Shown here: positions 2,905-63,126 of the stretch, piece after piece
Numbering within the stretch: the first letter of the stretch is position 1
Layout: the number at the start of each line of letters is the position of its first letter
NCBI GenBank assembly: GCA_964036195.1
Contig: OZ038456.1
Coordinates: forward strand, 24,963,792 to 25,027,791
DNA: 64,000 nt
DNA from: Sphaerolaimus hirsutus
Taxonomy: Eukaryota > Nematoda > Chromadorea > Monhysterida > Sphaerolaimidae
Reading direction: 5' to 3'
Made by a program: the position numbers and the translations under genes
The notes under the pieces: generated by a model
What the model saw: the letters and a program-made list of their open reading frames with translations, nothing else
Databases searched by the model: none
What the model was told of the DNA's origin: nothing

Positions 2905-3030
2905 AGGTGCCGGTCCCGAGCGCTGTAAAGTGTAAAGTAAAGTGTCAAATGTCATGTAAAATGTCAATCAAAACAAAAAAAGAAAAGATTTTATAACTGA
3001 ACCTTACTTTAACTTTGACACTTTATGTTC
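2905..3030. mobile_element. Short inverted-repeat element T (AGGTGCC end), diverged copy
   Basis: Left end AGGTGCCGGTCCCGAGCG is followed by TGTAAAGTGTAAAGTAAAGTG. An inverted ACTTTAACTTTGACACTTTA arm follows about 90 bp later. It belongs with the element that forms the intron at 38521-38684 and with the copy at 51850-52035. The right terminus is degraded. Confidence 0.5.
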
Positions 3031-18904: not shown

Positions 18905-21900
18905 TCACATGCTGGTGGTGGTGGGCGCCAAAGTGATGAGTGGCGTTTCCACAGTCGCCTCGGTGGTGAACGTGGTCGTGCGCGAAGTCGTGGGTGTGCG
19001 TGAAGTTGCAGGTCCGGTTGTTGGTGATGCCAACGCCGACCTAGCCTGATGATGAAGCAGGTAGTTGCCCGTGTCGCTTCCTGCGCGTTCGCGTGAGGTG
19101 AATTTGCGGATATCGGGCATGTGAACACTGTCTCTGTTCCTGGTTTTGACTTGTCCTTCATCAGCTGAACTTTCATCTGGTTGAACGTATGCTGATAGTG
19201 ACTTTGCCATTCTGTCCTCTGTTTCTGCTCTCCTGGCAAATCTGACGGACTGTGTTGAGTTGGATCTGGCTCTCCTCTTGATTGCTGGTCTCAACTCTGT
19301 CTTGCGCACTTTTCTTTGTGGATAATTGGTCTCTTTCTGAGTTGATTTCTTGATAGTGTATCTGATGGCTCTGAAGCATAGCCATATGCATTTGAATGGA
19401 CACACTATGCATTTCCATATGCATGTGTATACACACGGTGGAATCACTGGTTTCCCTGTGGCAATCCTCCAATTGTACCACAGGTATCCTGCAGCTACAA
19501 TTCCGGCTATCAGGATTGTGATCCCCAGCAGCATTGCGATTGTGTTGATGATCACTTGAAAGGGTCCTTTCAGCATTCCTCCCATAAAGTTGGTGTACCC
19601 TTTTGATACTCCAGATATATAATGACCATATGCTTTGCCGATTCCTGCTGCTGTCTGTCCAATTCCAGCTCCAATGCCTTCTATTGAATTTCTGATCACT
19701 CTGGGATCCAATGACATATCTGCTGTATAATCGATCAACTGGTTCTGCACATGTTCCAAATTCTGTAGTCTCTGAATCTGGCCTCTGACATCCATGAAAT
19801 TGGTCGCTCTGTTGACAATGTTGGTGAACAGGTGAGGCGCATCAAACGTGAAGGCCTGCCATTGTCCTTTCCATGTCATTTCGATTGGTGTCTCTGTGAC
19901 GTGCACCATTCCATGTGCGGACTTCCATTGTCCATGCTCATTTCTGTACAGGTGCGGTGTAGTGTGGCTGCAGTCCTCTTCTGGTGATTTCTCCACCAAG
20001 TCTCTGCTGCCTGGGCTCTTGAACCACAAGGGCCCGTCTTTGTCCAATCTCATTGGTGTGTACTTGTAACATGTCTCTCCCACTTTTCCTGTCTGATAAA
20101 TTATGTATGGCTGCACTTCCTTGCATTCCCAAAACATAATTGCTTCTCCAGCCCATTCTGCATGAACATCCTGTCTTCCCAGCATGGCTCGAATCCCCAG
20201 TGTTGGATCGATGCGGAAAAGCTGAGTCAACATGTCCAGCTGGTTCTTGCGAAGTTGACATAGCTGATGCCATACAATCGCAAATTGTGCCTGAGTCATC
20301 TCTCTGACTACATGTTGCAGGAACTGAAACTTGGAGTTTCTGTCGTCCAATCTGGCATACAATGTTCCACTGATTGTCGACTCTCTTGCCTCCACTATCT
20401 TTCCTGGCATTGCCCATTCCACAGGCACATCTTCTCTTCTGTCAAACTGGATAAATACACCTCCTTGATCGGTGTAGTATGTGTCTCCTGGAACACATTC
20501 TGAGCCAATTGGCCTCTTTGTCTTGTTGCTGTGGGAGTATGCTGCTTGCAATTTTGATACAATAATTGTCTGGCCAGATATCTCTGATTTGAATCTGCCA
20601 ATTCTCTCATATGCACATTGATGCTTGAAGTTCTCTGTATCCCACACTGTAATTCCATAATTGTGGTCTCTGCAATGTCCCATCATGGCTCTGCACTGGC
20701 TGAAATCTTGCAAGTCGCTGATTACAGTCTTTCCATCGAGTGAAGCCACGGTTCCTTCTTCCATGTAGAAGTTACTGACGACATTCTCTTTGTCATGGCA
20801 ACACCATGAATATTCCACATTCAAGGTTTGATTGGTTGTCCACACTCTGGGCTCCATTTCCACCAAAGGTGTTCCTCTGAACATCTTGTGAATTCTTGCA
20901 TAGTTACAGGCTACCACGCCAACTTGCTGGTATTTCTCAAAATTGCCTGTAATGCCTTTCGCTCCCCAGAAACTGGTGTGTGTGATGATTTCTTTGATTC
21001 TGATGTAGCATCTGTATGCTTTCTCTTTCTGTGGAATCTGTCTCTGTGCGTAAAGTGTAACTTTCATTGCCTTGACAAAATTCCTTGGTGGGATATGGCA
21101 CTGCACTTCTTCAGGAACTGTAAGCGCATGTCCATGCCTCCCACTGGTACAAATTTGGTACTTCTGGCTTTGTGAACTGATCACCTGTTCCACAGGATGA
21201 TCCTTGATTGCATCCTTAAATCTCTCATAAGTCTGCATTTCTCTGACAGATTTTGGTGGCCATTCTGAAGGCAAAGGCGGCAATCCATGATGCGCTGCCA
21301 ATGATGGTGGCCTTACTGTCGAGGTTTCTAGAACGTATGTTCTGGAAAATACTTCGCTGTAAGCTTTGCCGGCTTTTCTCAGTGTTGCTGACTCTGACAT
21401 GCCTGTTAGCATCAACACCATGCACAGCATTCCAATCACCAGACTGCTGGTGGTTGCTGTGGCTTTCCCTATTGCACTCCTCAGGACTCTATCCGATGCT
21501 GAGTTCCTCTGAGCAGGGTTTGGTAAAGAGTCTCTGTTCGAGCTCTGATTTCTGACATGTTTCTGGACAATTGCTGGGTCCAGTAAATCCACTTTGACCG
21601 TCACTGCTGTCTCTGGGATATCCATTGTCTTTGAATTGATTTCCAGCGGATACAATTGATTGAGTGGTCTGCTGACCACATTTCTGTTGGCAGTTCTGAC
21701 TTTTGCTGAGCGAATCTGTCCATCTTTGCTGGGCTCTAACTGCTCGATGCGACCCATCTTCCATGCACCTCTGGGCATGTTTTCTTCATAAATCAGCACA
21801 ATTTCATTCACTTTGGGTTCTTGAGTTGCTGTCAATCTGCCATGTTTGTGCATCACCTGAGTTCTTTCCCTCAAGCTCGGAATGTACTCTTGATGCCATA

Positions 21901-24301
21901 AGTCCCAGAACTTATCCAAAGTTTGCTGGGTTGTCTCCCAATATTTCTGCAGTTTCGCTGCGTTATCCATTCTGGGCACAAATTCTCCATCTTTGTCTGC
22001 ATCAAACTGTGGTGCTCCAATCTGACCTTCTCCTGTCAGGAAGTCCTTTGGCGTCAGCACTCTGAGGCTCTTTACATCACCATAGATGTAAGAGATTGGT
22101 CTGCTGTTGATTACTGCCTCAACTTCTGGCAGAAGTGTCAACAATTCTTGCAGGGTTAACATTCTGTGCCCTACAGCTGCCTTGAAATGTTTCTTGGTGA
22201 TACCCACCATTCTCTCATAGACTCCTCCTTGCCACGGTGCCATGGGAGTCGTCATGTTCCACTGGATTTGTTGCTGTGAACAGTAAGTCTGTACTGCTCC
22301 ACTTTTGACCATTTCTGACCATTCCTTTCCAGTATTAATGGCCTTGTCAGTGCTTGTGCTGAGCACTTTCTCTGTCAACTTGAATTGCGTTGCGTTGTCT
22401 GAAATCACTGCCTCAGGCTTTCCACGCCTGGCTATGAATCTTCTGACTGCGTTCAGGAATTCTTGTGCTGTCATGTCCAGCACACTTTCCAGGTGAACCG
22501 CACGTGTCACCATGCATGTGAACAAACAGATCCACATTTTCCTGTGATCTTTGTCCACTTTGTACCAAACTGGTCCCAAATAATCCAAGCCCGTGTACTG
22601 GAACGGTCTGGCTCTCTGAACTCTGGTTTCTGGTAAATCTGGCATTGGTGGAAGCTGGTACGGCTTCGCTCCCAATTTCTTACAGGTTGGGCAGGTTCTG
22701 GTCACATTGTAGATCACCCGTCTGCCCTGTGTAATCCAGTACTTTTGTCTGATCGCTGCCAATGTGTGTTGCACTCCTGCGTGCATCAATTTCTCATGCT
22801 GGTCTCTGACAATCAGCTGAGTCACTGTAGCCGTTGCTGGCAACAGTATGAGTGGCACTGTGACCTCCTGTGGGTCTGTATGCTCCATTCTGCCGTGGCA
22901 CTTCAAGATTCCATCTTGATGCATTTGCACATTGAGCCATTTGATCAACTGCTGGTCTGCAGCTGTTTTCTTGCCATTCTGGCTGTTTTTGCTATGGCCT
23001 GTTGCCAGAATCTCTGCCACTCCTTTGTAATGATTTTGTTGCGTCACTTTGATCCAGTATTTCAACGCAATCTCTCTCTCTTCAATACTGATAATTCCCT
23101 GTGGTTTTATTGTACCACAAATACTTTCCATGATTTCTGACAATCCCTTCTGACTGTCATTTCTATTGCGCTTTTTGTGCATCTGTCGCACAAATCTCAT
23201 CACGTATACTGTTGCATCCAGTAACTTTGTCAGTGATGAGAATCTCTGAATCTCAATTCCCAATGGGTTGCTTTGCTTGCTTTCATCAGCTTGCACATTG
23301 CTGGCATCTGGGTCACTGACCACCTGCTGTGTGGCGCCCAGGTAAATTGGACTGGCTTTTGGGAATTTGAGCTCTTCTTTCTTGATTTCTGCCATTACTT
23401 CTGGCGTGACTGGCTCCACTTTTAACTCTGGCCATTCTCCAGTCATTAGCCATTCTGGTCCCTTCCACCACAGGTTACTGCCTTCCAACTCTGACATATT
23501 CATGCCTCTTGTGGCCATGTCAGCTGGGTTTTCCAGTCCTGCGATGTGTCTGATGTGCATGTTCTCTGTCTCACTCTGAATTTTCCTGATTTCATCCAAT
23601 CTGTTCTTGACAAAACATGCCAGTGGCTTCGCTGTTGTTAGCCACTTCAGACAACAGGTTGAATCTGACCATACAACTGTTTGACTGAATTTGACGTCCT
23701 TGAGCTCCTTGTGAATGAATTTCGACATTCTGCTGCCGATCAACATTGCTAACAATTCCAGCCGTGGAATTGTCACTTCTGGTTTCTTTGGAGCGAGTCT
23801 CAATCTGGAGTACAGCAGGCTTGACGTGCCGCTGTCATTTTCTGTTTTCTGGCATATGTATGCCGCTGCGCTGTATGCCATTGCTGAGGCATCAACGAAA
23901 ATGTGCAGTTGTGCATCTGCACTACCCTGATAATTCAGATTTCTGTTGAACTTGATCTGTCCAACCTTGAGCAATTCTGTCTCTAATTGCTGCCAAATTG
24001 CTGTCTGTTCCTCAGACAGGGGAGTATCCCACTCTTTGGCACTTGGTCCTGAATGCCATAACGTTTGCAAAAATCTCTTTGCTGGCAGTAGGACAGGACT
24101 GACTAGTCCCATTGGATCAAAACATCCCGCAGTCACCTTTGCAACTGTCCTTTTTGTGGGAAGTTTGATTTTTTGGTCAGTTTCTGATAATTGTGATTGC
24201 TGAACTGTCTTTGGCGTTTTCAGCCACATCTGGTCGCTCTCTGTGTCCCATTTCATTCCTAGGACTGTTGTGACAATTTCCGAGAAGTTGAAAAGCAACA
24301 C
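18905..24301 (-). CDS. BEL/Pao Pol-Env-like polyprotein (partial)
   Basis: A single 1,798-codon frame, open further upstream to about 24328. Residues about 1-120 are the end of the Pao RT (VLGMKWD, FDPMGLVSP). About 130-270 is RNase H, with acidic residues D137, E182, D213 and D261. About 500-545 is the integrase zinc domain (H502, H507, C537, C540). The integrase core has D573, D635 and E696. About 810-890 is the conserved domain that follows integrase in BEL/Pao. A hydrophobic segment at 953-967 then begins an envelope-like region. Its ectodomain has many cysteines (for example C1132, C1167, C1168, C1203, C1210, C1229), followed by a Gly/Ala helix region 1540-1575, a membrane span about 1581-1608 and a Cys-rich cytoplasmic stretch 1623-1642. 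RNase H and integrase are confident. The envelope assignment rests on position and topology, and its viral source is not identified. It is unusual that Env is fused in frame with Pol; a separate or spliced ORF is more usual. Confidence 0.85.
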   Translation of the reverse strand: MLLFNFSEIVTTVLGMKWDTESDQMWLKTPKTVQQSQLSETDQKIKLPTKRTVAKVTAGCFDPMGLVSPVLLPAKRFLQTLWHSGPSAKEWDTPLSEEQTAIWQQLETELLKVGQIKFNRNLNYQGSADAQLHIFVDASAMAYSAAAYICQKTENDSGTSSLLYSRLRLAPKKPEVTIPRLELLAMLIGSRMSKFIHKELKDVKFSQTVVWSDSTCCLKWLTTAKPLACFVKNRLDEIRKIQSETENMHIRHIAGLENPADMATRGMNMSELEGSNLWWKGPEWLMTGEWPELKVEPVTPEVMAEIKKEELKFPKASPIYLGATQQVVSDPDASNVQADESKQSNPLGIEIQRFSSLTKLLDATVYVMRFVRQMHKKRNRNDSQKGLSEIMESICGTIKPQGIISIEEREIALKYWIKVTQQNHYKGVAEILATGHSKNSQNGKKTAADQQLIKWLNVQMHQDGILKCHGRMEHTDPQEVTVPLILLPATATVTQLIVRDQHEKLMHAGVQHTLAAIRQKYWITQGRRVIYNVTRTCPTCKKLGAKPYQLPPMPDLPETRVQRARPFQYTGLDYLGPVWYKVDKDHRKMWICLFTCMVTRAVHLESVLDMTAQEFLNAVRRFIARRGKPEAVISDNATQFKLTEKVLSTSTDKAINTGKEWSEMVKSGAVQTYCSQQQIQWNMTTPMAPWQGGVYERMVGITKKHFKAAVGHRMLTLQELLTLLPEVEAVINSRPISYIYGDVKSLRVLTPKDFLTGEGQIGAPQFDADKDGEFVPRMDNAAKLQKYWETTQQTLDKFWDLWHQEYIPSLRERTQVMHKHGRLTATQEPKVNEIVLIYEENMPRGAWKMGRIEQLEPSKDGQIRSAKVRTANRNVVSRPLNQLYPLEINSKTMDIPETAVTVKVDLLDPAIVQKHVRNQSSNRDSLPNPAQRNSASDRVLRSAIGKATATTSSLVIGMLCMVLMLTGMSESATLRKAGKAYSEVFSRTYVLETSTVRPPSLAAHHGLPPLPSEWPPKSVREMQTYERFKDAIKDHPVEQVISSQSQKYQICTSGRHGHALTVPEEVQCHIPPRNFVKAMKVTLYAQRQIPQKEKAYRCYIRIKEIITHTSFWGAKGITGNFEKYQQVGVVACNYARIHKMFRGTPLVEMEPRVWTTNQTLNVEYSWCCHDKENVVSNFYMEEGTVASLDGKTVISDLQDFSQCRAMMGHCRDHNYGITVWDTENFKHQCAYERIGRFKSEISGQTIIVSKLQAAYSHSNKTKRPIGSECVPGDTYYTDQGGVFIQFDRREDVPVEWAMPGKIVEARESTISGTLYARLDDRNSKFQFLQHVVREMTQAQFAIVWHQLCQLRKNQLDMLTQLFRIDPTLGIRAMLGRQDVHAEWAGEAIMFWECKEVQPYIIYQTGKVGETCYKYTPMRLDKDGPLWFKSPGSRDLVEKSPEEDCSHTTPHLYRNEHGQWKSAHGMVHVTETPIEMTWKGQWQAFTFDAPHLFTNIVNRATNFMDVRGQIQRLQNLEHVQNQLIDYTADMSLDPRVIRNSIEGIGAGIGQTAAGIGKAYGHYISGVSKGYTNFMGGMLKGPFQVIINTIAMLLGITILIAGIVAAGYLWYNWRIATGKPVIPPCVYTCIWKCIVCPFKCIWLCFRAIRYTIKKSTQKETNYPQRKVRKTELRPAIKRRARSNSTQSVRFARRAETEDRMAKSLSAYVQPDESSADEGQVKTRNRDSVHMPDIRKFTSRERAGSDTGNYLLHHQARSALASPTTGPATSRTPTTSRTTTFTTEATVETPLITLAPTTTSM

Positions 24302-24381
24302 GCCAGTGTTTCCGTGCCAATGTAGACTTTCTGAATATTTAAAAATAAAAAAAGTAGTATAAAAATATAAAACACTACTTT

Positions 24382-24663
24382 TTACATCAATTCAAACAAA
24401 CCAGCATGCATGACGATCCCATTATACAGAGCTAAACCTGTCCTGCTACAGAAACGCAAATAGTGACCATGTGGTGCCCTCAATCTTAGATCGAACAGTA
24501 TCAGGGCACATCCTCCAAAAGCCGGAATTTCGTAGTCATATGCACTGGATAGTCGAATAAATGGATCAAAGGCTGCATTTGTGGGGCGAAGTGCTCGATT
24601 AGAAATTAGTTGGTAGGCCACTGCAGGTCCTCGATTTATATTGTTGTTATTATCAGAAGGCAT
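24382..24663 (-). CDS. dUTPase-like protein, C-terminally truncated
   Basis: 93 codons. dUTPases hydrolyse dUTP to dUMP and act as trimers using five short motifs. Visible here: SSAYDYEIPAFGG (residues 39-51; compare the SAYDY-IPP region of eukaryotic and viral dUTPases), LILFDLRLRAPHGHY (54-68) and CSRTGLAL (72-79, equivalent to the P-RSGLA motif). The start of motif 3 lies at 85-90, but the ORF stops before the usual Asp and DYRG. It therefore looks truncated, or continues in an exon lost near the BEL 5' breakpoint; a GT lies after GCTG in the last codons. It diverges from the CxxC gene at 25041 across a tandem-repeat spacer. Origin, host or endogenised DNA virus, cannot be decided from the window. 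Confidence 0.55.
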   Translation of the reverse strand: MPSDNNNNINRGPAVAYQLISNRALRPTNAAFDPFIRLSSAYDYEIPAFGGCALILFDLRLRAPHGHYLRFCSRTGLALYNGIVMHAGLFELM

Positions 24664-25970: not shown

Positions 25971-26177
25971 TGGAAGTAACATCACCATCAATATGACTTG
26001 TAATAATAAATACCCTCATTGATATTTAGGGTGATGATGAATTTATAATTTACGGTTGTTAGCATTGTCCATTTATTTACTATAGAATATATCGATCGAT
26101 CGACAATAAAAAAGTTATTTTACAATGTTTGAAAGATATTATTACTTGAACTAATGCAATAATTTTTGCAGTGAAAC

Positions 26178-26934
26178 TAATGAAATAACAGTGTAAGTTC
26201 AAAAATGAATGTGAGATAAAAATGTAAAATTTTACGTGTAAAATGTAAAATGTAAAATTTTACGTGTAAAATGTAAAATGTAAAATTTTACGTGTAAAAT
26301 GTAAAATGTAAAATTTTACGTGTAAAATGTAAAATGTAAAATTTTACGTGTAAAATGTAAAATGTAAAATGTGAAATGTAAAATGTGAAATGTAAAATGT
26401 GAAATGTAAAATGTGAAATGTAAAATGTGAAATGTAAAATGTGGTGTATGTGGTAGTGCTGAAATGAAAAATGTAAAATGTAAAATGTAAAATTTTACAT
26501 GTAAAATGTAAAATGTAAAATGTAAAATGTAAAATGTAAAATTTTACGTGTAAAATGTAAAATGTAAAATTTTATGTGTAAAATGTAAAATGTAAAATTT
26601 TACGTGTAAAATGTAAAATGTAAAATGTGAAATGTAAAATGTGAAATGTAAAATGTGAAATGTAAAATGTGAAATGTAAAATGTGAAATGTAAAATGTGG
26701 TGTATGTGGTAGTGCTGAAATGTAAAATGTAAAATGTAAAACTGTAAAATGTAAAACTGTAAAATGTAAAATGTAAAATGTTAAATTTTACAAGTAAAAT
26801 TTTACCAAGTATAAGATGAGTAGTGATGTGAAAGGTGTGTGCAATGTGAAATGTGAAATGTGAAATGTGAAATGTGAAATTTTACTTGTAAAATGTAAAA
26901 TGTAAAATTTTACATGTAAATTGTAAAATGTAAA
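26178..26934. repeat. AAATGT-type simple repeat with higher-order units
   Basis: AAAATGTAAAATGT and AAATTTTACGTGT units, alternating with GAAATGTAAAATGT. A larger unit of about 260 bp is visible: the marker GTGGTGTATGTGGTAGTGCT appears near 26440 and again near 26698. Confidence 0.85.
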
Positions 26935-28038
26935 AACCTAAGCCTAAGCTAAGCCTAAGCTAAGCCTAAGCTAAGCCTAAGCTAAGCCTAAGCTAAGCCT
27001 AAGCTAAGCCTAAGCTAAGCCTAAGCTAAGCCTAAGCTAAGCCTAAGCTAAGCCTAAGCTAAGCCTAAGCTAAGCCTAAGCTAAGCCTAAGCTAAGCCTA
27101 AGCTAAGCCTAAGCTAAGCCTAAGCTAAGCCTAAGCTAAGCCTAAGTTAAGCCTAAGCTAAGCCTAAGTTAAGCCTAAGCTAAGCCTAAGTTAAGCCTAA
27201 GTTAAGCCTAAGTTAAGCCTAAGCTAAGCCTAAGCTAAGCCTAAGCTAAGCCTAAGCTAAGCCTAAGCTAAGCCTAAGTTAAGCCTAAGCTAAGCCTAAG
27301 CTAAGCCTAAGTTAAGCCTAAGCTAAGCCTAAGCTAAGCCTAAGCTAAGCCTAAGTTAAGCCTAAGCTAAGCCTAAGTTAAGCCTAAGCTAAGCCTAAGT
27401 TAAGCCTAAGCTAAGCCTAAGTTAAGCCTAAGCTAAGCCTAAGTTAAGCCTAAGCTAAGCCTAAGTTAAGCCTAAGCTAAGCCTAAGCTAAGCCTAAGTT
27501 AAGCCTAAGCTAAGCCTAAGCTAAGCCTAAGCTAAGCCTAAGTTAAGCCTAAGCTAAGCCTAAGCTAAGCCTAAGCTAAGCCTAAGCTAAAAGCCTAAGC
27601 TAAGCCTAAGCTAAGCCTAAGCTAAGCCTAAGCTAAGCCTAAGTTAAGCCTAAGCTAAGCCTAAGTTAAGCCTAAGCTAAGCCTAAGCTAAGCCTAAGCT
27701 AAGCCTAAGCTAAGCCTAAGCTAAGCCTAAGCTAAGCCTAAGCTAAGCCTAAGCTAAGCCTAAGCCTAAGCCTAAGCCTAAGCCTAAGCCTAAGCCTAAG
27801 CCTAAGTTTAGGCCTAAGCCTAAGCCTAAGCCTAAGTTTAGACCTAAGCCTAAGCTAAGCCTAAGCCTAAGCCTAAGCCTAAGCTAAGCCTAAGCCTAAG
27901 TATAGACCTAAGCCTAAGCTAAGCCTAAGCCTAAGTTTAGACCTAAGCCTAAGCTAAGCCTAAGCCTAAGTTTAGACCTAAGCCTAAGCTAAGCCTAAGC
28001 CTAAGTTTAGACTTAAGCCTAAGCTAAGCCTAAGTTTA
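26935..28038. repeat. Interstitial telomere-like array (TTAGGC and TTAGGCTTAGC)
   Basis: About 1.1 kb. From 26935 to about 27757 the unit is the 11-mer AAGCCTAAGCT, with AAGCCTAAGTT variants interspersed; its complement is TTAGGCTTAGC. At 27757-27815 it becomes pure GCCTAA hexamers (TTAGGC). From about 27815 to 28038 it becomes longer mixed units containing AAGTTTAGACCTAAGCC. TTAGGC is the nematode telomere repeat. The array is internal, with unique or repeat DNA on both sides. Confidence 0.9.
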
Positions 28039-28524: not shown

Positions 28525-28797
28525 ACGCGTGGTTCATGTTGAAAATACCGTATTTACTTGAATAATTATTTTGTCGGACATTTTTGAGGGGGGTTAATAT
28601 TTGGTCAAAATTTAGGTATCATTTATCAAATCTTTAGAGGGTTAGTTGACGGGGTATATGGTATTTGACATATTATCGGACATTTTACTAGGTCTGAGAG
28701 TCACACCTAAATTTTGACCAAATATTCACCCCCCTCAAAAATGTCCGACAAAATAATTATTCAAGTAAATACGGTATTTTCAACATGAACCACGCGT
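28525..28797. mobile_element. Palindromic TACCGTATT element (hairpin)
   Basis: Inverted arms of about 110 bp starting ACGCGTGGTTCATGTTG, then AAAATACCGTATTTACTTG, ATAATTATTTTGTCGGAC, TTTTTGAGGGGGG. The right arm repeats this in reverse almost base for base. The centre contains GGACATTTTACTAGGTCTGA. Confidence 0.7.
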
Positions 28798-29158: not shown

Positions 29159-32100
29159 TCACAGCTTTATCAGCCGATCGTTGTCGTCGTTGGCTAGCGT
29201 CACGGGCGGTACGTCCGGCAGCGGCGGCAAAGGCCTGGAAAAAATACAATATCAATGATTTTTTATAATTTGAATATATCGAGATATTTTTAAATTCACC
29301 TTCTGTTACTACGATTCTGCTGCCCGTAACCGCCGCGACCATCGTACGCGACGTCTGTAAATATTTGTAAAAATTACATTGTAAATAAAAATAAAATAAA
29401 ATACGTTAAATATGTCGCCAGAAATTTTCGGACAGGTGACAAACTACTGTATTTGTCATGTACGTCCTCTTACACTCAATTTTAGGGGAGGAGGGTATTT
29501 GGGGGGGTTCATTTAGAGTAATACGGTAGGTAGTTGACATTGAATGGACACGAATTTGAGATGTCAACTATTGCGAGGGTAAAAATCACAAACACACCAC
29601 AATTGCCGACGTCGTTGTCGCCCTGATCGCCGTAACCCCCGCCGCCGTAACCCCCGCCGCCGTAACCCCCGCCGCCGCCACCATGACCGTAGGCGTGACC
29701 GGCCTGAGCGCCGCCGCCGCCGCCGCCGTGACCGGCCTGAGCACCGTCGCCGCCACCGTAGCCGTGACCGCTGGTAAAACGTAAAACGATGTTTAGAGTA
29801 GGTAAAAACGAGTTTGAAAAACTTTTAAATATACCTGCTGAAACCGCCGTGACCGGTCTGAGCACCGCCGCCGCCGCCGTGACCGGCCTGAGCGCCGCCG
29901 CCACCGCCACCGTGGCCGTGACCGGCCTGAGCACCACCGCCAACGTGGCCGTGACCGGCCTGAACACCGTCGCCGCTGCCGTAGCCGTGACCGAGCTGAG
30001 CGCCGCCGCCGCCGTGACCGCTGGTGAAAAGTAAAAATGTTTAGAGTAGGTAGGAACAAGTTTGAAAAAACTTTTAAATATACCTGCTGAAAGCGCCGCC
30101 GCCGTGACCGGCCTGAGCGCCGCCGCCGCCGCCACCGTGGCCGTGACCGGCCTGAGCACCGCCGCCACCGTGGCCGTGACCGGCCTGAGCACCACCGCCG
30201 CCGCCACCGTGGCTGTGACCGGCCTGAGCACCGCCGCCACCGTGGCCGTGACCGGCCTGAGCACCGCCGCCACCGTGACCGGCCTGAGCGCCGCCGCCAA
30301 CGTGGCCGTGACCGGCCTGAGCACCGCCGCCGCGACCGTGACCGTGACCGGAGTGAGCGCCGCCGCCGTGACCGCTGGAAAAAAGTAAAACAATGTTTAG
30401 AGTAGGTATAGGTAGGGACAAGTTTGAAAAAAATTTAAATATACCTGCTGGGGCCGCCGTGACCGGGCTGAGCACCGCCGCCGCCGTGACCGGACTGAGC
30501 GCCGCCGCGACCGTGACCGAGCTGAGCGCCGCTGCGACCGTGACCAAGCTGAGCGCCGCCGCTGCGCCTGCCACAGCCGCCGCTGCGGAAAAAATAACAC
30601 AATGTAGCAGTAAAAACAGTGAGAAACGACGAAACTTCTTTTAAATGCACCTGCTGGCCACGACGGCTGCATCGTCTCCGCTGCGGCAAATGGTACCGCA
30701 ACCAGTACCGCGGTCACCGCGTTCGGACCGGTTCACCGTGTAGTTCCCGGTGCGGCCCACAGTGTCCGCTTCGCTGATGCTGGGTGTTGGAACGGAGTAA
30801 AAAGTTCCTAGGGGGAAAGTGCCCGGCATTTGTTGTTGTCCCAACGTGGGGATAAATGGGAGTCTGCGAAATTGGGACACAACTATTCCAAACATTTCAG
30901 AGATAAATACTAAATTAAAGAATTTATTTTTAATATTTCATTCTTTTTCCCAAATAAAACAACAAATTTAACTTATTTTGATTTAGGGGGGTCCCGTATC
31001 CCGATCTTATTGGAATTCTAATCTCAATTCCATATCAAAATTATTTACCTAGGGGCCAATGAAGGCATTCCGGAATTGGTATTTTGATCCCTGCGAAAAC
31101 GCGACGCTCCCTGCTCGTTTTTCTGGTTCTTCATGCGTCGCTTGAGAAACTGCGGTCATAAATACAAATTTCACATTGATAAAATTTGACAAAAATTTGA
31201 CAAAAAACCTCACATAATTTTGCAGCCAGAAGTACACGGCGACCACGTTGGACAGGACGGCGTAGACGAACAGGCCGATCGTCTGCCAATTTATCCACGG
31301 ATTTGGGCAGTTGCACGAACAGCTGCATTTCGAGGGGCTGTCGGCCTGAAATGGATAAAAATTATGTATTTTTCATGCGTAAAAATTCGTAAAATTCGGT
31401 CAAATACCGGATATTACACAAGATACCGGTATTTGACATTTTACCGGACATTTTACAGGGTCTGTCGTTGAATGACCAAGCGAAACTATCAAAAAGCAGG
31501 GGGTTTTCAACCGGTATTTGACATTTTACCGGACATTTTACAGGGTCTGTCGTTGAGTATGAAAAAGCGAAACTATCAAGAAGCAGGGGTTTTCAATTAG
31601 AAAACCCCCTCTAAAAGATATCCCCCGACTAAGAAGGGTGGCCTTCAAAGCCGAGGCTGGTCGCCAAACCTTCTGGGGTATAATAAATACTGTACAAACT
31701 GTACAAATCTGACGGGCTCTATTTTTGAGAGGTGTCGAAAATGACCGAAACATGAACTTTGCGGGTTCAGGTGTTTCGTGTTGCAACAGGGAGTGGGGTT
31801 TTTTACTCAACGACAGACCTTATAAAATGTCCGGTAAAATGTCCGGTAAAATGTCAAATACCGGTACCTTGTGTAATATCCGGTAATTGACCAAATTTTA
31901 CGAATTTTTACGCATGATAAATTAAAAAACAAGCTAGATAATCAAAAACAACACCAAAAAAATTGAATTTTTGGAAACAACACCCCCCACCGTCGTGTGC
32001 GGAAAACTTTTGTATTTAAACACCGTTGGATGTACCCATCCACCACCACCAATGATGTTACGCATTGTCGGCACAGTCGACGGTGTTGTGCTGACGGTGC

Positions 32101-34767: not shown

Positions 34768-35062
34768 ATTTTACAAAAATGAATCGTTTTCAGGCAAAAT
34801 GGGGTATTTTATGTCAAATTTTCCGGGTATTTTACATGACTGTTGACACTTGACACATTTTCGACATTTTACTGAACATTTTACAGGGTCTAGTTATTGG
34901 TTCACTTGTCACTATTGACTCCAGGTGTGACCCCCAGACCCTGTAAAATGTCCGGTAAAATGTCAAAAATTTGTCAAGTGTCAACATTTATCTAAAATAC
35001 CCGGAAAATTTGACATAAAATACCCCATTTTGTCTGAAAAAAACTCATTTTCGTAAAATACA
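34768..35062. mobile_element. Palindromic element upstream of the secreted gene
   Basis: Inverted arms of about 130 bp: CAGGCAAAATGGGGTATTTT, ATGTCAAATTTTCCGGGTAT and CATTTTACAGGGTCT on the left, with inverted partners on the right; centre near 34915. Shares ACATTTTACAGGGTCT with the elements at 31374 and 51850. It occupies the putative promoter region of the gene starting at 34735. Confidence 0.7.
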
Positions 35063-37811: not shown

Positions 37812-38258
37812 TTAGTTTTGTCTCATTAAAATTTCATACAGCATAGTATCCTCGATAGGTCGATCTGCCGCATTACATTTACCTATAAAATACTTTTTTC
37901 TACAAATATATATATATTTACAAATAAAATATAAATAATAACCTTTAGTAAAGATTTGTATTTGTCCCAAATTTTGTGATTTAGCCAAATGAACTGCGCA
38001 ACAAAATTCACATTCATTCGAAAAAGTCTCAAATTTTCCAAATTCATTTATTGCGCATATAAAATCCTCTTTTATTCCACAGTAGCATATTTCTGCCTGA
38101 TAAGTTTGACATAAAAAATCGGTAGAAATTGTCGAAGTGATAGGGTTGTTATAGAAACTAGTAATAGTAGTAGAAATTTCATCAGTGGAATTTTCAGATT
38201 TAACATAATATATAATTATGTAATAAATACAGATTCTCGCAAAAATAAATTCAAACAT
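37812..38258 (-). CDS. Kazal-like secreted protein
   Basis: Exons 37943-38258 and 37812-37882 with a 60-bp intron; 128 residues. Residues 1-22 are a hydrophobic signal peptide starting at the second Met (MFEFIFARIC). A Thr/Ser-rich linker follows, then a cysteine module: C50, C58, C60, C68, C83, C86, C87 and, after the intron, C108. SNECEFC (80-86) and TKGKC (105-108, completed by the splice) match the NEC-x2-C and G-x-C parts of Kazal protease inhibitor domains. The C68-C83 spacing is longer than usual, so the fold is likely but divergent and inhibitory activity is uncertain. Its ATG overlaps the ATG of the plus-strand gene at 38257 by two bases. Confidence 0.6.
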   Translation of the reverse strand: MFEFIFARICIYYIIIYYVKSENSTDEISTTITSFYNNPITSTISTDFLCQTYQAEICYCGIKEDFICAINEFGKFETFSNECEFCCAVHLAKSQNLGQIQIFTKGYYLYFICKYIYICRKKYFIGKCNAADRPIEDTMLYEILMRQN

Positions 38259-39093
38259 GGCCGCCACTACAAATACGGATAGTGTAATTTACAACAACGT
38301 TTTGTCTTGGTTGGGAAACCATCCAGAACGCACTAATCCCACACCAACTCAACCATTACCATCTATACAATACATTTTTCAACAACCCCCACCGCCACCC
38401 CCTCCGGCGGAAGGTCAAAATAATGGGGCTGTGGTTCAACAGGGCTACATTGGGCCACCCCCGCAAGAAGAAGTTGATGAAGAAATACAACTGGAGAGAC
38501 GGAAAGAGGGTTTTCGGCAGGTGCCAATCCCAAACCCTGTAAAATGTAAAGTAAAGTGTCAAATGTAAAATGTCAATTGTCATACAAAATTCTGTAATAA
38601 AATCTTTTTATTGTTTTGGTTGACAGTAAACTTGACATTTGACACTTTACTTTACGTTTTACAGGATTTGAGACTGCACCCTAGGTGGTGCGCACTTTGA
38701 CGCAGGAAAAACAAACTTACAACAACAATTGGATAGATGTTGAACGAATGAAACGAGATAGCTTTGTGAGTGAAAATACTTTTGTTACCCCATTTTGTAA
38801 ATGTAAACCCCTAACTAATTATGTAATTCCTGATACTAATATTATAATTGTTGAAACCCCCCAAATTTCAGCCAAATGACACGGATCTAAGTGACGAATT
38901 GGATAATCATTGGGAATACAGGGCCGTAAAAAAGTTGAAACACTTCAAAAGGCAACGCCGCCTAGAACAACAACGACAAAAAACACCTGTCGAAATCCAA
39001 CAAGAAGGAGAAAATGTCCCAAAGCCTGTGGCTTTGGTGGCTGGGCACAGACGTTGCGGTGGTGTTGGCATCACTCTGCGGCGCAAGTGTTAG
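38257..39093 (+). CDS. Three-exon Pro-rich / basic protein with element-derived intron
   Basis: Exons 38257-38520, 38685-38765 and 38872-39093 (TAG); 567 coding nt, 188 residues, all junctions phase 0. The start context is AAACATGGCC. Exon 1: N-terminal part, then a Pro run (PPPPPPP) and an acidic end. Exon 2 ends before GTGAGT, a strong donor. Exon 3 follows AAATTTCAG and encodes an acidic patch and a Lys/Arg/Gln-rich region. Intron 1 (38521-38684) is an inverted-repeat element. No domain recognised. From about 39014 another frame of exon 3 is strongly hydrophobic, so the C-terminus is less certain than the first two exons. Confidence 0.55.
38519..38682 (+). mobile_element. Inverted-repeat element T forming intron 1 (introner-like)
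   Basis: Left end AGGTGCCAATCCCAAACCCT, then GTAAAATGTAAAGTAAAGTG; the right side is the inverse (ACTTTACTTTACGTTTTACA, GGATTTGAGACTGCACCCT). The donor is inside the left end (CAG/GTGCC). The acceptor is formed by the last T of the element plus flanking AG (CCCTAG/GTGG). Intron and element limits differ by only two bases. AGGTG stands at both boundaries and may be a target duplication, although in other copies the left AGGTGCC is part of the element. Confidence 0.7.
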
Positions 39094-39384
39094 TTTCACC
39101 ATCTTACAATTGTAAATTAAAAATGGCAATAAAGTACCTTATTTCCTCAAAATACCCCCTAGATGATTATGTTCAAATTTTTGAGAAGTGAAAGGAAAAT
39201 TGTATTTAGAGGGGTGAAAATTTATTTCAAAGTCACAATTAAAAGAGTTTTTTGAGAAAATACTGTACTATTTTACTTAACACTTGACAGGTCATGGGTC
39301 GGTGTCCAGAGGCAGCGTCAACAAACGCAATGGCGATAGCGGCAAAAGCGATAACAGCGTCGCCGCAAGCGGTACCAACAGAAA
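39094..39384. other. Intergenic or intronic stretch
   Basis: Contains TACCTTATTTCCTCAAAATA, a G-run element end, and the coding-like 39291-39384 segment after CACTTGACAG. That segment has stops in the frame needed for the next gene, so no exon is assigned. Confidence 0.35.
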
Positions 39385-46814: not shown

Positions 46815-47978
46815 TTTTTGGGGTACATAAATTTGAGCAATCAAGTCACTTTTTTGCAAATTTTCTTGCCACTTGACACTTTTCTTGTCACTTGACTTGA
46901 CAGTTGGTGAAATTGGCACCAGGCGGAGTCCATCGAGCTCAGATCTGTGATAGGATTGTTGAATGGATTTCAATATACAGAAAAAAAGTCCCAAGTGCCA
47001 AAAGCGCTGTGGTGCTTACTGCTTAATGCTTTGGCTCTGGGTCTGGCGCGGCAGAGTTGTTAAAAGTACCAAACTTTTCTCAAAGTATTTCAAAGTATTT
47101 TTTTTACTTACACTGCGTAAAAAATTGGGTACCTGAACGTAAAATCTGGTATTTATACTCAGGTGTAACGTAAAGCTATTATTTTTCCGATTTTGTAATC
47201 AGGATGCTTTTCGTCTGTAAAACAGCAGATCAACTTGAATAAAACCCCAAAAGCCCAAAAGGCAAAACAAAACGCACTTTTATATTCAGAGATTGTATCC
47301 GCATCAGTGATAGCTTTCTCAGTCTAACATCCCCACCAAGAGAACTTCAAATTTATTGCAAATAAATAGACAAATAGACAAACTATGCAAAAAAAATTAC
47401 GCCGGGGAAAAATCTTCAAATGCAGTACATTACCATACGTTTGTATTTCTTTGAATCTGGTTTGGTTACTTCACAAGCGCTGGTATAAACACTAATTTGC
47501 TCAGAGGTTGGCTGTTTAGAGCATAAAGTTAGAGTTCTATTTTTACGCTTTATTCGAGTCCCTCAACAACTCCCGATTGTACCCATTTTGGAGCATAAAT
47601 ACTACAGCGAAACGCAGTACACTTGCATCACATTTACAGGGACACTTAAATGATAACTAGCATTCGAAAAATAACCCGTGATTTATATTTTTGAAAATCA
47701 CAATAAATATAAATAACCCGTGATTTATATATATTTATATTTTTTTCAAATTCTGAGTGATATATTTATATATATTTTTTAATTTCGAAAAAAAAATCAC
47801 TGAGAAAATCACTCATACTAGATACATTGTGGTGCAAGTATTGCGCTTCATGACTAAAACATGTAATTTGTGCAAGAGAATTTTGAATTTTGCAAGAGAA
47901 TTTTCTCCTGAAAATCTCTCATCTGCTCATGTAGAGCATTATTGAGTTATAATAGTGTTTGAAGCAGGTGATTATTGT
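46815..47978. other. Gene-free AT-rich stretch
   Basis: No gene supported. Around 47660-47790 short repeats of AACCCGTGATTTATATTTTT occur, similar to 49310-49420. 46850-46990 has only low-value ORFs. Confidence 0.4.
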
Positions 47979-51711: not shown

Positions 51712-51849
51712 GAATAATAAATGTACTACAAAAGCACGCCGAAAGTGGGAGAGAATCCTGCCATTTAAATGGAATGTATTATTGCGATGTTTAGTAAAGT
51801 GAATAGGTAGGAAATTTAAATCGAAACGCATACCGTCAGTTGGGGGACC

Positions 51850-52035
51850 AGGTGCCAGTCCCAGACCTTGTAAAATGCCCTGTAAAGTGCCAAATGTCAT
51901 GTAAAATACCCTGCTAAATGGCAACTCAAATGCCAACCGAGTTGTCATTTTGCAGAACATTTTAGAGAACTTTTTACACTTTGCATGACACTTGACATTT
52001 TACAGGTAACTTTACAGGGTCTGGGACTGCCCCCT
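51850..52035. mobile_element. Inverted-repeat element T, complete copy
   Basis: 186 bp with ends AGGTGCCAGTCCCAGACC and, inverted, AGGGGGCAGTCCCAGACC. Subterminal TGTAAAATGCCCTGTAAAGT and its inverse. Same family as the intron at 38521-38684. Confidence 0.7.
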
Positions 52036-52171
52036 GGTTGCACATGGGGCAGTGTGTTGTTACGATGTCGTAGATGTCCTCCACGCGGTCTCCACGCAGT
52101 CGCGGCCGCGCCGCATCCCCAATCTGTGCGTTCAAGTCCAGCACACACTTTTTGCACTCGGCGGACACCGC
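52036..52171 (-). CDS. Orphan exon candidate with CxxC motifs
   Basis: Minus-strand open frame beginning after TTTTTCAG at 52171 (GCG GTG TCC). It encodes about 45 residues with CKKC near the start and CPMC near the end, over a high-GC segment unlike its flanks, and runs into element T at 52035. No donor GT stands at the element edge, so the gene may be broken there or the element may be in a 3' exon. It resembles the CDKC...CTC arrangement of the gene at 39385 only in outline. Confidence 0.35.
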
Positions 52172-52395: not shown

Positions 52396-52881
52396 TACCG
52401 TATTACCTCGAATTATCCCCCCCCTTGAATTAACCCCCCCCTCGAATTAACCCCCCCTCAAAATGGGCTGGGGAAATAATAACCCCCCCCCCTCGAAATA
52501 CCCCCCCTCCGGAATGATGTACATCATGTATGCAATGTACATGATGTATTGATTACTACTTATTTGCATCGCAGCTACACTTATACGCTCATTTGTGTAC
52601 AGATGTGCGGGTATACATTCGGGGCGGGTATACATTCGGGGCGGGTATACATTCGGAATGAGCCTTGGTCCATCTATAGCCCCAATATTACCTATTTTCT
52701 CACATTTATTACCGTTTTTGTGTAAGAAAAGGCGCGTTCTTTAGTATGAATTTCATGAAAATTTCTGGCGAAATAATAAACCCCCCCTCGAATACCCCCC
52801 CCCCCCCTCGAATTAACCCCCCCTCAAATTTTGCTGGCGAAATAATAAACCCCCATGGGGGTATTTCGAGGTAATACGGTA
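52396..52881. mobile_element. G-run TACCGTATT element, family B, complete
   Basis: Ends TACCGTATTACCTCGAATTA / TATTTCGAGGTAATACGGTA. Subterminal C-run blocks are joined by CTCGAATTAA. The interior has TGTACATCATGTATGCAATG and ACTTATTTGCATCGCAGC. Also contains three GGGTATACATTCGGGGC units at 52605-52660. Flanks ATGTA / ATGTA next to TA are suggestive of a short duplication. Confidence 0.75.
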
Positions 52882-53005
52882 TGTATAACACTTTTTGACC
52901 CATCCTCATAAGTACATGTGAGTAAATAACTTTTTTTTGGAAAATGTAAAATTGAGTACTTTTTTCCATGGAAAATTTAAAAGCGACTGCCTACTTTTCT
53001 TCATA

Positions 53006-53880
53006 GAATACCGTATATCCTTGAATAAGTCCCCTGGGGAGTTATTTTTTCATCAGAACTTTTTTATGGGGAGTTAATCCAGAGGGGGAGTTATTCGAGG
53101 GGGGGGGGTTATTTTTTCGTCAGAATATTAAGTAAAATTCATGATCAATATATTGTATAAATAAGGCTGAATTAGTTGCATAAACCTGTAAGTTTGTATA
53201 GAAATTCATTAACTCATGCAATGAAATGAATGGTAGTAAAGATAAATACGCTGAAATAAATACATCCTTTTAAACCTACCGTATTACCTCGAATTAACCC
53301 CCCCCCCTTGAATTAACCCCCCCGCCCTCGAAACCCCCCCCCCTAAATTTCGGCTGAGGAAATAATAAACCCCCCCCTCGAAATACCCCCCCTAAGATTG
53401 AGTGTAACGTGAACGTACTTGACAAATACCGCAGTTTTGTGATCTGTACAATGCAGAACACACGTTAAAACTGATGATTAAGTGACGTTAGGGAAGGGTT
53501 TTTGTGTATATACAGTTATATATGCGTATAAACACATATACATACCTGTAATTGTTCGATTTTTCTACGTCTGCGTATGGGGAATTTCCGAAAATTTCTG
53601 GCGAAATAATAGACCCCCCCTCGAATAAACCCCCCCTCGAATTATCCCCCCCTCAAATTTTGCTGGCGAAATAATAAACCCCCTGGGGGTATTTCGAGGT
53701 AATACGGTACATAAAGACGTTGTTTTGGATATGAACATCTTAGTCACCCCTTAAAGAGGGGGAGTTATTTGAGGGGGGGGGGCGAGTTATTATTTCCTCA
53801 ATCTCCTAACACGGGGGGAGTTATTTGAGAGAGGGGGGAGTTATTCAAGGGGGGACTTAATCGAGGATATAAGGTATGTA
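53006..53880. mobile_element. TACCGTATAT element interrupted by family A element
   Basis: Left TACCGTATATCCTTGAATAA with TCCCCTGGGGAGTTATTTTT; right GGGGACTTAATCGAGGATAT then AAGGTA. Between them lies the complete family A copy (53277-53709), showing one member inserted into another. Confidence 0.6.
53277..53709. mobile_element. G-run TACCGTATT element, family A, complete
   Basis: 433 bp with ends TACCGTATTACCTCGAATTA / TATTTCGAGGTAATACGGTA. The interior contains 'ttgacaaataccgcagttttg', 'aacacacgttaaaactgatga' and 'ctacgtctgcgtatgggg'. Partial copies are at 677-935, 11600-11784 and 29424-29528. Confidence 0.75.
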
Positions 53881-62695: not shown

Positions 62696-63126
62696 TACCG
62701 TATTACCTCGAATTTCCCCCCCCCCCCTTGAATTAACCCCCCTCCCCCCCCCTTCGAATAAACCCCCCCTCAAAATGGGCTGGGGAAATAATAAACCCCC
62801 CTCGAAATACCCCCCCTCCGGAATGATGCACATCATGTATGCAATGTACATGATGTATTTATTACTACTTATTTGCATCGCAGCTACTCTTATATGCTCA
62901 TTTGTGTACAGATGTACATCTATAGCCCCAATATAACCTATATTCTCACATTTATTACTGTTTTTGTGTAAGAAATAGCGTATTCTTTACAACGAATTCC
63001 ACGAAATTTTCTGGCAAAATAATAACCCCCCCCCCTCGAATAACCCCCCCCCCTCGAATTAACCCCCCTCAAATTTTGCTGGCGAAATAATAAACCCCCA
63101 TGGGGGTATTTCGAGGTAATACGGTA
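62696..63126. mobile_element. G-run TACCGTATT element, family B, complete
   Basis: 431 bp, collinear with 52396-52881: same ends, the 'catgtatgcaatgtacatga' block, TTTGCATCGCAGCTAC, TCTATAGCCCCAATAT and GGCGAAATAATAAACCCCCA. Confidence 0.75.

Follow-up and report, generated by a model that had tools for sequence, protein, structure and literature searches.

The genome of the nematode Sphaerolaimus hirsutus contains a very large family of palindromic elements that insert at CWG sequences and that are very probably introners, that is, elements that could be spliced out as ready-made introns. This reading draws on the genomic sequence, and specifically on the family and its ends, its target duplication, its position within conserved coding domains, the continuity of the reading frame across it and its orientation bias; splicing of transcripts at the element ends, including those of the copy denoted E1 (38521/38684), is proposed from these features. 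The origin of new introns is a long-standing question and there are few animal examples of mass intron birth. Introners have reportedly been extended to more transposon types in later work by the group of Gozashti et al.

An element the length of a proposed intron

The window, which is the whole stretch of 64,000 nucleotides that was analysed, contains element E1 at 38521..38681 on the plus strand. E1 is a 161 bp imperfect palindrome that starts GTGCCAATCCC and ends GAGACTGCACCC, with 77% self-complementarity over 166 aligned positions (E 3e-27), and the RNA fold of 38501-38720 has a z of -9.1, with none of 200 shuffles as good. It is 59% identical to the 81-copy consensus described below (gaps counted), and by this measure is an old copy. 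A preliminary description of the region had proposed that the first intron of a plus-strand gene is nearly coextensive with a single dispersed inverted-repeat copy, and that the donor lies inside the element's left end. Both proposals hold, in that E1 is self-complementary from 38521 to 38681 and is one of a very large family, and the GT at 38521 is the terminus of the element.

The organization of the flanking sequence is simple. Exon 1 of the host gene (38257..38520, plus strand; MAATTNTDS...EGFRQ) is an open frame whose last triplet, CAG at 38518..38520 on the same strand, is the left copy of a 3-bp target duplication. The right target copy is TAG (38682..38684, plus strand), which presumably originated from CAG and is the proposed 3' splice site, such that E1 together with the following TAG would constitute an intron of 164 bases (38521-38684, plus strand). 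Exon 2 (VVRTLTQEKQTYNNNWIDVERMKRDSF; VVRTLTQ..., 38685..38765, plus strand) follows immediately and has a GTGAGT donor next to it, with a possible alternative start at 38706. The acceptor had earlier been assigned to the last T of the element plus a flanking AG, which is incorrect, as the TAG at 38682-38684 is the changed target copy. The related suggestion that AGGTG stands on both sides and that splicing restores the exon exactly is right as to the restoration but not as to the duplication, which is CAG (here CAG/TAG); the left GTG is the element terminus and the right GTG belongs to the exon, so AGGTG is not the duplicated unit.

Joining exon 1 to exon 2 through the GT at 38521 and the AG at 38683-38684 gives a phase 0 junction, and exon 2 has stops in both of its remaining frames. 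If E1 is left unspliced, a stop is encountered at the 16th codon inside the element. Splice sites near E1 and E2 were scored with a weight matrix. Six of the 65 GT/AG pairs around E1 keep the frame without a stop, and the best in-frame acceptors by this matrix are at 38705 (7.5) and 38684 (6.9); the top pair overall, 38521/38664 (score 15.1, acceptor TTTTACAG), is out of frame. We tentatively take 38684, a weak site by this score, as a candidate for the exact acceptor, alongside the in-frame site at 38705, which scores slightly higher.

No homologue of the host gene was found among 5.8 billion proteins. Further likely introns are present in the gene. How exon 3 connects to exon 4 is uncertain, as the frame-continuous reading of exon 4 from an acceptor at 39290 contains two stops. 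An altered genetic code in which both of these encode Q was rejected because the standard code leaves long retroelement frames open; the number of frames of at least 150 codons (150 with code 6, versus 18) is not informative on this question.

Other copies and repeats in the window

A second complete copy, E2 (182 bp; 51852..52033, plus strand), is flanked by target copies CAG (51849-51851) and CTG (52034-52036), and its hairpin has a z of -9.5. It interrupts in antisense the open frame of a probable minus-strand exon (52036..52171; AVSAECKKCVLDLNAQIGDAARPRLRGDRVEDIYDIVTTHCPMCN, with TTTTTCAG ahead of it), which has no Pfam match over the cut-off and no PDB relative. Being antisense to this probable exon, E2 cannot use the GT-AG splice sites at its ends, and enumeration of its splice sites with the same weights gives many weak pairs, none of them decisive. 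E3 (2905..3030, plus strand) is incomplete, comprising the left end and roughly half of the element's length, without a matching right end. The preliminary description had the copies at 51850-52035 and 2905-3030 sharing both ends; this is true of the first, which is complete at 51852-52033, but the second has the left end and half only.

A profile of the element ends scores 54–64 bits on its five source ends, compared with a maximum of 12.2 in 30 simulated windows. There are also matches at 17–38 bits, at 28656-28708, 31431-31464, 31516-31549, 31814-31859, 34845-34891, 34925-34982 and 46862-46920. Those near 31.4–31.9 kb and 34.8–35.0 kb have a core in common, AGACCCTGTAAAATG, which is inside larger fold-backs (inverted repeats I8 and I6) and faces outward in them.

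Several other repeats are present. At 26163-26940 there are 14-bp tandem arrays with TGTAAAATG-like units that are similar to the element interior, and these are possibly a source or a product of the element. The adjoining interval (26940-27882) contains tandem arrays of 11 bp (AAGCCTAAGCT) and of 6 bp (GCCTAA; 27758-27882), the latter resembling an interstitial nematode-type telomere repeat. C-rich units (TCGAATTAACCCCCCC, GGTAATACGGTA and others) are scattered in both orientations, at 52411-53710, 62745-63126 and elsewhere. The minus strand carries a BEL/Pao retroelement frame (18905-24391) with Pao peptidase and integrase zinc-binding domains, together with a fusion-protein domain of envelope-like type (Pfam Monjiviricetes_fusion, 6.8e-16). 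The named retroelement relatives among the 120 matches listed come mainly from pseudoscorpions, nematodes and insects, in keeping with an animal host.

A large family with a CWG target duplication

The left end AGGTGCCARTCCCARACCCTGTAAA occurs 10,478 times (5,299 + 5,179) in the 348-Mb assembly at two or fewer mismatches, a count to which one element can add one or both ends, and the reversed control gives zero. A similarity search with E1 returned 1938 first candidates in the assembly, 40 of which were scored. The element was read 166 times in a scan of the window and 98 cut loci, and these readings were reduced to 92 unique copies starting with GT, with nine places unresolved and four identical left flanks dropped. 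Most of this 92-copy sample was recovered with a pattern that requires an A before GG, and the rest are similar to E1 or lie nearby. A larger set of 104 entries was made by adding further complete copies and three later loci to the 92; one locus is entered twice, and there are four duplicate loci.

The consensus, from 81 entries of 130–215 bp, is 189 bp long (GTGCCAGTCCC...GGGACTGCCCC) and is 98% self-complementary over 181 bp; the termini of the family are GTGCCAGTCCC and GGGGCAGTCCC, and the median identity of the copies to the consensus is 82%. Eighty-one of the 92 unique copies start CAG/GT, and 66 of the 92 read AG/GT...AG/. In 66 of 100 entries the left and right triplets are identical (61 CAG, 4 CTG and 1 CAT), a count from which the four duplicate loci were dropped, in which one locus is entered twice, and which is biased towards CAG by the pattern; one of the CTG/CTG cases can also be read as CAG in the opposite orientation. 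A 5-bp AGGTG duplication was rejected, since copies with unrelated flanks have AGGTG on the left and the matched triplets are CAG, CTG and CAT. The preferred insertion context is aCCWGg.

Assembly-wide, there are 1005 exact C[A/T]GGTGCC ends with CAG (541 + 464) and 816 with CTG (409 + 407), with none in the controls. The near balance of the two is a prediction of a palindromic CWG target. CAG left ends nonetheless exceed CTG left ends 1.23-fold (p 1e-5), and there are 753 right ends with CAG; the small left-end excess fits with selection for spliceable copies but does not prove it. The strong CAG excess of the first sample (81/92) was mostly an artefact of the pattern, which demanded an A before GG.

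The triplet differs among loci and matches within each locus, which points to DNA transposition. Spread via RNA, by reverse splicing or retro-homing, might be suggested by the near-perfect symmetry of the element, which is like that of the Hypoxylaceae sister stwintrons, for which DNA transposition is described as excluded by the authors (PMC8469720). However, a triplet that is the same on both sides of a copy yet changes from one locus to the next (CAG/CAG, CTG/CTG, CAT/CAT) is what DNA transposition predicts, and the antisense copies and the near 1:1 ratio of CAG to CTG are expected from DNA transposition at a palindromic CWG. An RNA route is thus very unlikely, and DNA transposition is the preferred explanation for dispersal of the family.

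There are 163 matches to DDE_Tnp_4 in the assembly. More than 100 matches to this PIF/Harbinger-type domain are of near-equal score and most have four TGA inside, a pattern that may reflect introns or a common lesion. In a search for relatives elsewhere, viral_contigs scans gave 0, 1 and 0 places and genome_contigs gave two, both bacterial; we took all three to be chance matches.

Copies in coding sequence

Exact GT..AG removal of the 66 AG...AG copies leaves a shorter open side with a median of 130 nt. When the join is shifted by one or two bases the medians are 94 and 92 nt (p 0.007 and 0.004 vs exact), and on the other strand of the same 66 copies the median is 88 nt (p 0.0015 vs exact). 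The GC content of the flanks is 0.54, compared to 0.42 at 700–1000 nt upstream. At E≤1e-3, a Pfam match was obtained for eleven of the 52 sense joined peptides, but for only 1 of 41 antisense peptides (one-sided Fisher 0.006). Each of the 52 has 20 or more open codons on either side of the junction. They were run against Pfam in several batches, one of which had been trimmed to about 50 residues and picked by eye beforehand; all 52 are counted. Eight of the 11 sense matches cross the junction, with six of those eight over Pfam's own cut-off, and three of the 11 (L061, L063 and L087) are below it.

In four domains the protein and profile intervals are equal and the profile runs ungapped through the junction. 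These are ABC_tran (locus L053; protein 5-42, profile 100-137, 4.5e-10), RNA_pol (L096; protein 10-50, profile 75-115, 2e-18), Oscp1 (L024; protein 17-50, profile 1-34, 2e-11) and Filament (2-35/119-152, 2.2e-5, under Pfam's cut-off). LRR_6 (3.5e-6), Cation_ATPase_C (1.5e-10) and VWA (4.6e-5) domains also cross the junction, and an LDL-receptor class A domain is among those in the joined peptides; this domain and the intermediate filament domain likewise suggest an animal host. A 55-residue polymerase query, with the junction after residue 13, matches two places, starting at residues 10 and 11, and this junction-crossing query found no uninterrupted polymerase copy in the assembly.

With a codon score for which nine of these exons served as the training set (leave-one-out), 37 of the 104 entries are assigned as coding, 33 of them sense and 4 antisense (p 1e-6), and 67 as not coding, although this is a weak score that fails to pick up some likely exons, including those of E1 and the polymerase. 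In control windows 600–1150 nt away, 38 of 379 score as coding (a number set by the threshold), and in comparing this with 37 of 104 it should be noted that most loci were gathered through the CAG-type pattern. The controls are themselves skewed 30:8 to the element's strand, so the 33:4 bias may in part reflect location in same-strand genes, and it is not a measure of splicing alone. Moreover, with 67 of 104 entries not coding and a CAG excess of only 1.23-fold, many of the copies need not be introns. The introner interpretation had been advanced in the preliminary description, with a lack of enrichment at intron boundaries named as evidence against it; it has come through this partial test at intron-like boundaries and is supported by the sequence.

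Two alternatives bear on these observations. One is that the family is an ordinary high-copy MITE that lands anywhere, with GT...AG arising coincidentally from the terminal inverted repeat (TIR) and a CAG target, and with the hosts being pseudogenes or damaged alleles. The near balance of CAG and CTG insertions (1005 vs 816), the 67 of 104 sampled entries not called coding and the impossibility of canonical splicing for some exonic copies are all consistent with this, but the 33:4 preponderance of the spliceable orientation among coding entries, the conserved domains in frame on both sides at a median identity to the consensus of just 82%, and the lack of an uninterrupted polymerase copy (55-residue query) argue against it, and we consider it unlikely. 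The second is that elements entered pre-existing introns and replaced most of their sequence. Remnants of the old intron would then be expected outside the triplets, whereas in the main class the element extends up to both splice sites and the flanking triplets restore the codon; the E1 gene does have other likely introns, and in L103 an exon ends in the element with a possible acceptor, TTTTTTTCAG, further on, but replacement is highly improbable. Insertion of the element as a ready-made intron is the interpretation we favor.

CTG-type and antisense copies

There are five copies in coding exons, in the GT direction, that have CTG on the left: the second copy in L024 (Oscp1), and those in L046, L048, L104 and L105. 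The Oscp1 assignment of the second L024 copy has a Pfam score of 4.4e-17 (7-48/48-89). No Pfam match was found for L046, L104 or L105, and these together with L048 are putatively coding, as judged from their open frames. The right triplet is CTG in L024 and L104, CAG in L046 and L105, and CCG in L048. Among seven CTG-left copies, excluding L048 (CTG/CCG) and L078 (ambiguous orientation), four have AG on the right and three have CTG, compared with 63 and 4 respectively for CAG-left copies (Fisher 0.002), a comparison based on few copies. The CAG to the right of some coding CTG-left copies suggests repair by a T-to-A change. For the CTG/CTG copies in L024 (second copy) and L104, GT-AG removal at the ends is impossible.

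E2 and L076 are antisense within coding exons, and the single antisense Pfam match (Glyco_transf_11, 1 of 41 peptides) is most likely L076. The L076 copy (L076:1560-2256) is 697 bp long with foreign sequence within the palindrome, representing a nested insertion, and is antisense in a fucosyltransferase-like exon. In L024, the coding frame of a single Oscp1 gene is interrupted twice over a distance of about 1 kb, by a CAG-type copy and by a CTG-type copy, and the locus contains a further member of the family.

The exonic CTG/CTG and antisense copies are either damaged alleles or the sign of a different type of excision. It is conceivable, although doubtful, that the CTG/CTG copies (Oscp1 and L104) and the antisense copies (E2 and L076) are functional introns that are cut exactly between the CWG repeats, and as part of the same doubtful reading this could occur either via TG 3' splice sites or by a hairpin- and repeat-guided route analogous to that proposed for Amoebophrya. 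In 36 human genes, TG is described as serving as an alternative 3' splice site (PMC2374985). If such excision occurs, the family would be nearly neutral in exons in both orientations.

A proposed route from transposon to intron

We propose that a non-autonomous palindromic terminal-inverted-repeat DNA element inserts at CWG and doubles the 3 bp, and that the GT with which its left terminus opens would act as the donor. With a CAG target, and a gene read in the GTGCC direction, this would generate ...CAG/GTGCC......GCCCC CAG/..., in which the first CAG would stay in the exon and the second would provide the acceptor AG, with splicing rebuilding the uninterrupted exon. The hairpin would pull the two splice sites together and may aid splicing. 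Insertion at CTG would give no AG acceptor, although a later T-to-A change may repair it. If the acceptor AG is derived from the CWG duplication, then it would be missing from almost half of the exact ends (816 CTG vs 1005 CAG).

Intermediate stages are likely to be present together in this one assembly, which has about ten thousand matching ends. These would include copies that show no coding signal, CAG copies that lie in conserved genes and could be spliced, CTG copies whose right triplet either is or is not CAG, and copies in antisense orientation. The CWG duplication would supply one CAG for the exon end and another for the acceptor, with the element needing only its GT tip, and this suggests a simple reason why a class of transposons could become introners.

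Relationships to known introners and transposons

The family is not described in the title or the start of the abstract of the open-licence PMC papers listed on introners (30 of 67), intron gain or Harbinger. The closest mobile elements are perhaps those of NuwaI, a part of PHIS (PIF/Harbinger-ISL2EU-Spy) that is defined by a 5'-CWG-3' 3-bp duplication and is reported, in the account given, from animals only (PMC4482050). NuwaI elements are described there as having TIRs of 12–61 bp starting GGG, and autonomous partners with a DDE transposase and a Myb/SANT protein. The S. hirsutus family likewise has the CWG duplication in 65 of 100 entries (61 CAG and 4 CTG, with one more CAT), and its right terminus, read inward, starts GGGG (GGGGC). 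It departs from NuwaI in its left terminus, which is GTG (GTGCC), and in an inverted repeat that spans the element (181 of the 189 bp of the consensus). The word "intron" is absent from the main text of the NuwaI paper (PMC4482050). A PIF/Harbinger-type transposase may be the mover of the S. hirsutus family.

There are also similarities to repeated introns in fungi and dinoflagellates. The Hypoxylaceae stwintrons and cropped introns and the Capnodiales introner-like elements have long terminal inverted repeats, as does this family, and are described as sitting seamlessly in exons and as functional on the coding strand only (PMC8469720), which would also hold here. No flanking duplication is described for the Hypoxylaceae in that paper, whereas here CWG is duplicated and there are also copies without coding signal. 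The introner elements of Amoebophrya have inverted repeats near both ends that form a hairpin joining the exon borders, and direct repeats of 3–5 nt over the exon/intron borders that are comparable to the triplets of this family (PMC7789003). That host is a dinoflagellate and its introner elements are defined among introns with non-canonical splice sites, unlike the main class here, which is GT-AG.

There are also parallels with the introners reported by Gozashti et al. in 2022. TIR introners with target duplications are known, including a type that brings its own 5' site and relies on the duplication for the 3' site (PMC9860276, Fig. 2C), and in the survey of 3,325 genomes introners are reported from just two groups of animals (PMC9860276). 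As in the introners described there, the S. hirsutus copies are putative repeated introns that are alike up to both splice sites and have TIRs and a short target duplication, with one splice site coming from the element, the other from the duplication, and exact restoration of the exon (PMC9860276). They differ from those descriptions in the CWG duplication, the palindromic nature of the whole element, the animal host, and the near-equal share of copies at CTG that lack a ready acceptor. Introners are thus a known kind of element, but this family is new, and it is unusual in its animal host, its scale and its CWG route to a ready-made acceptor.
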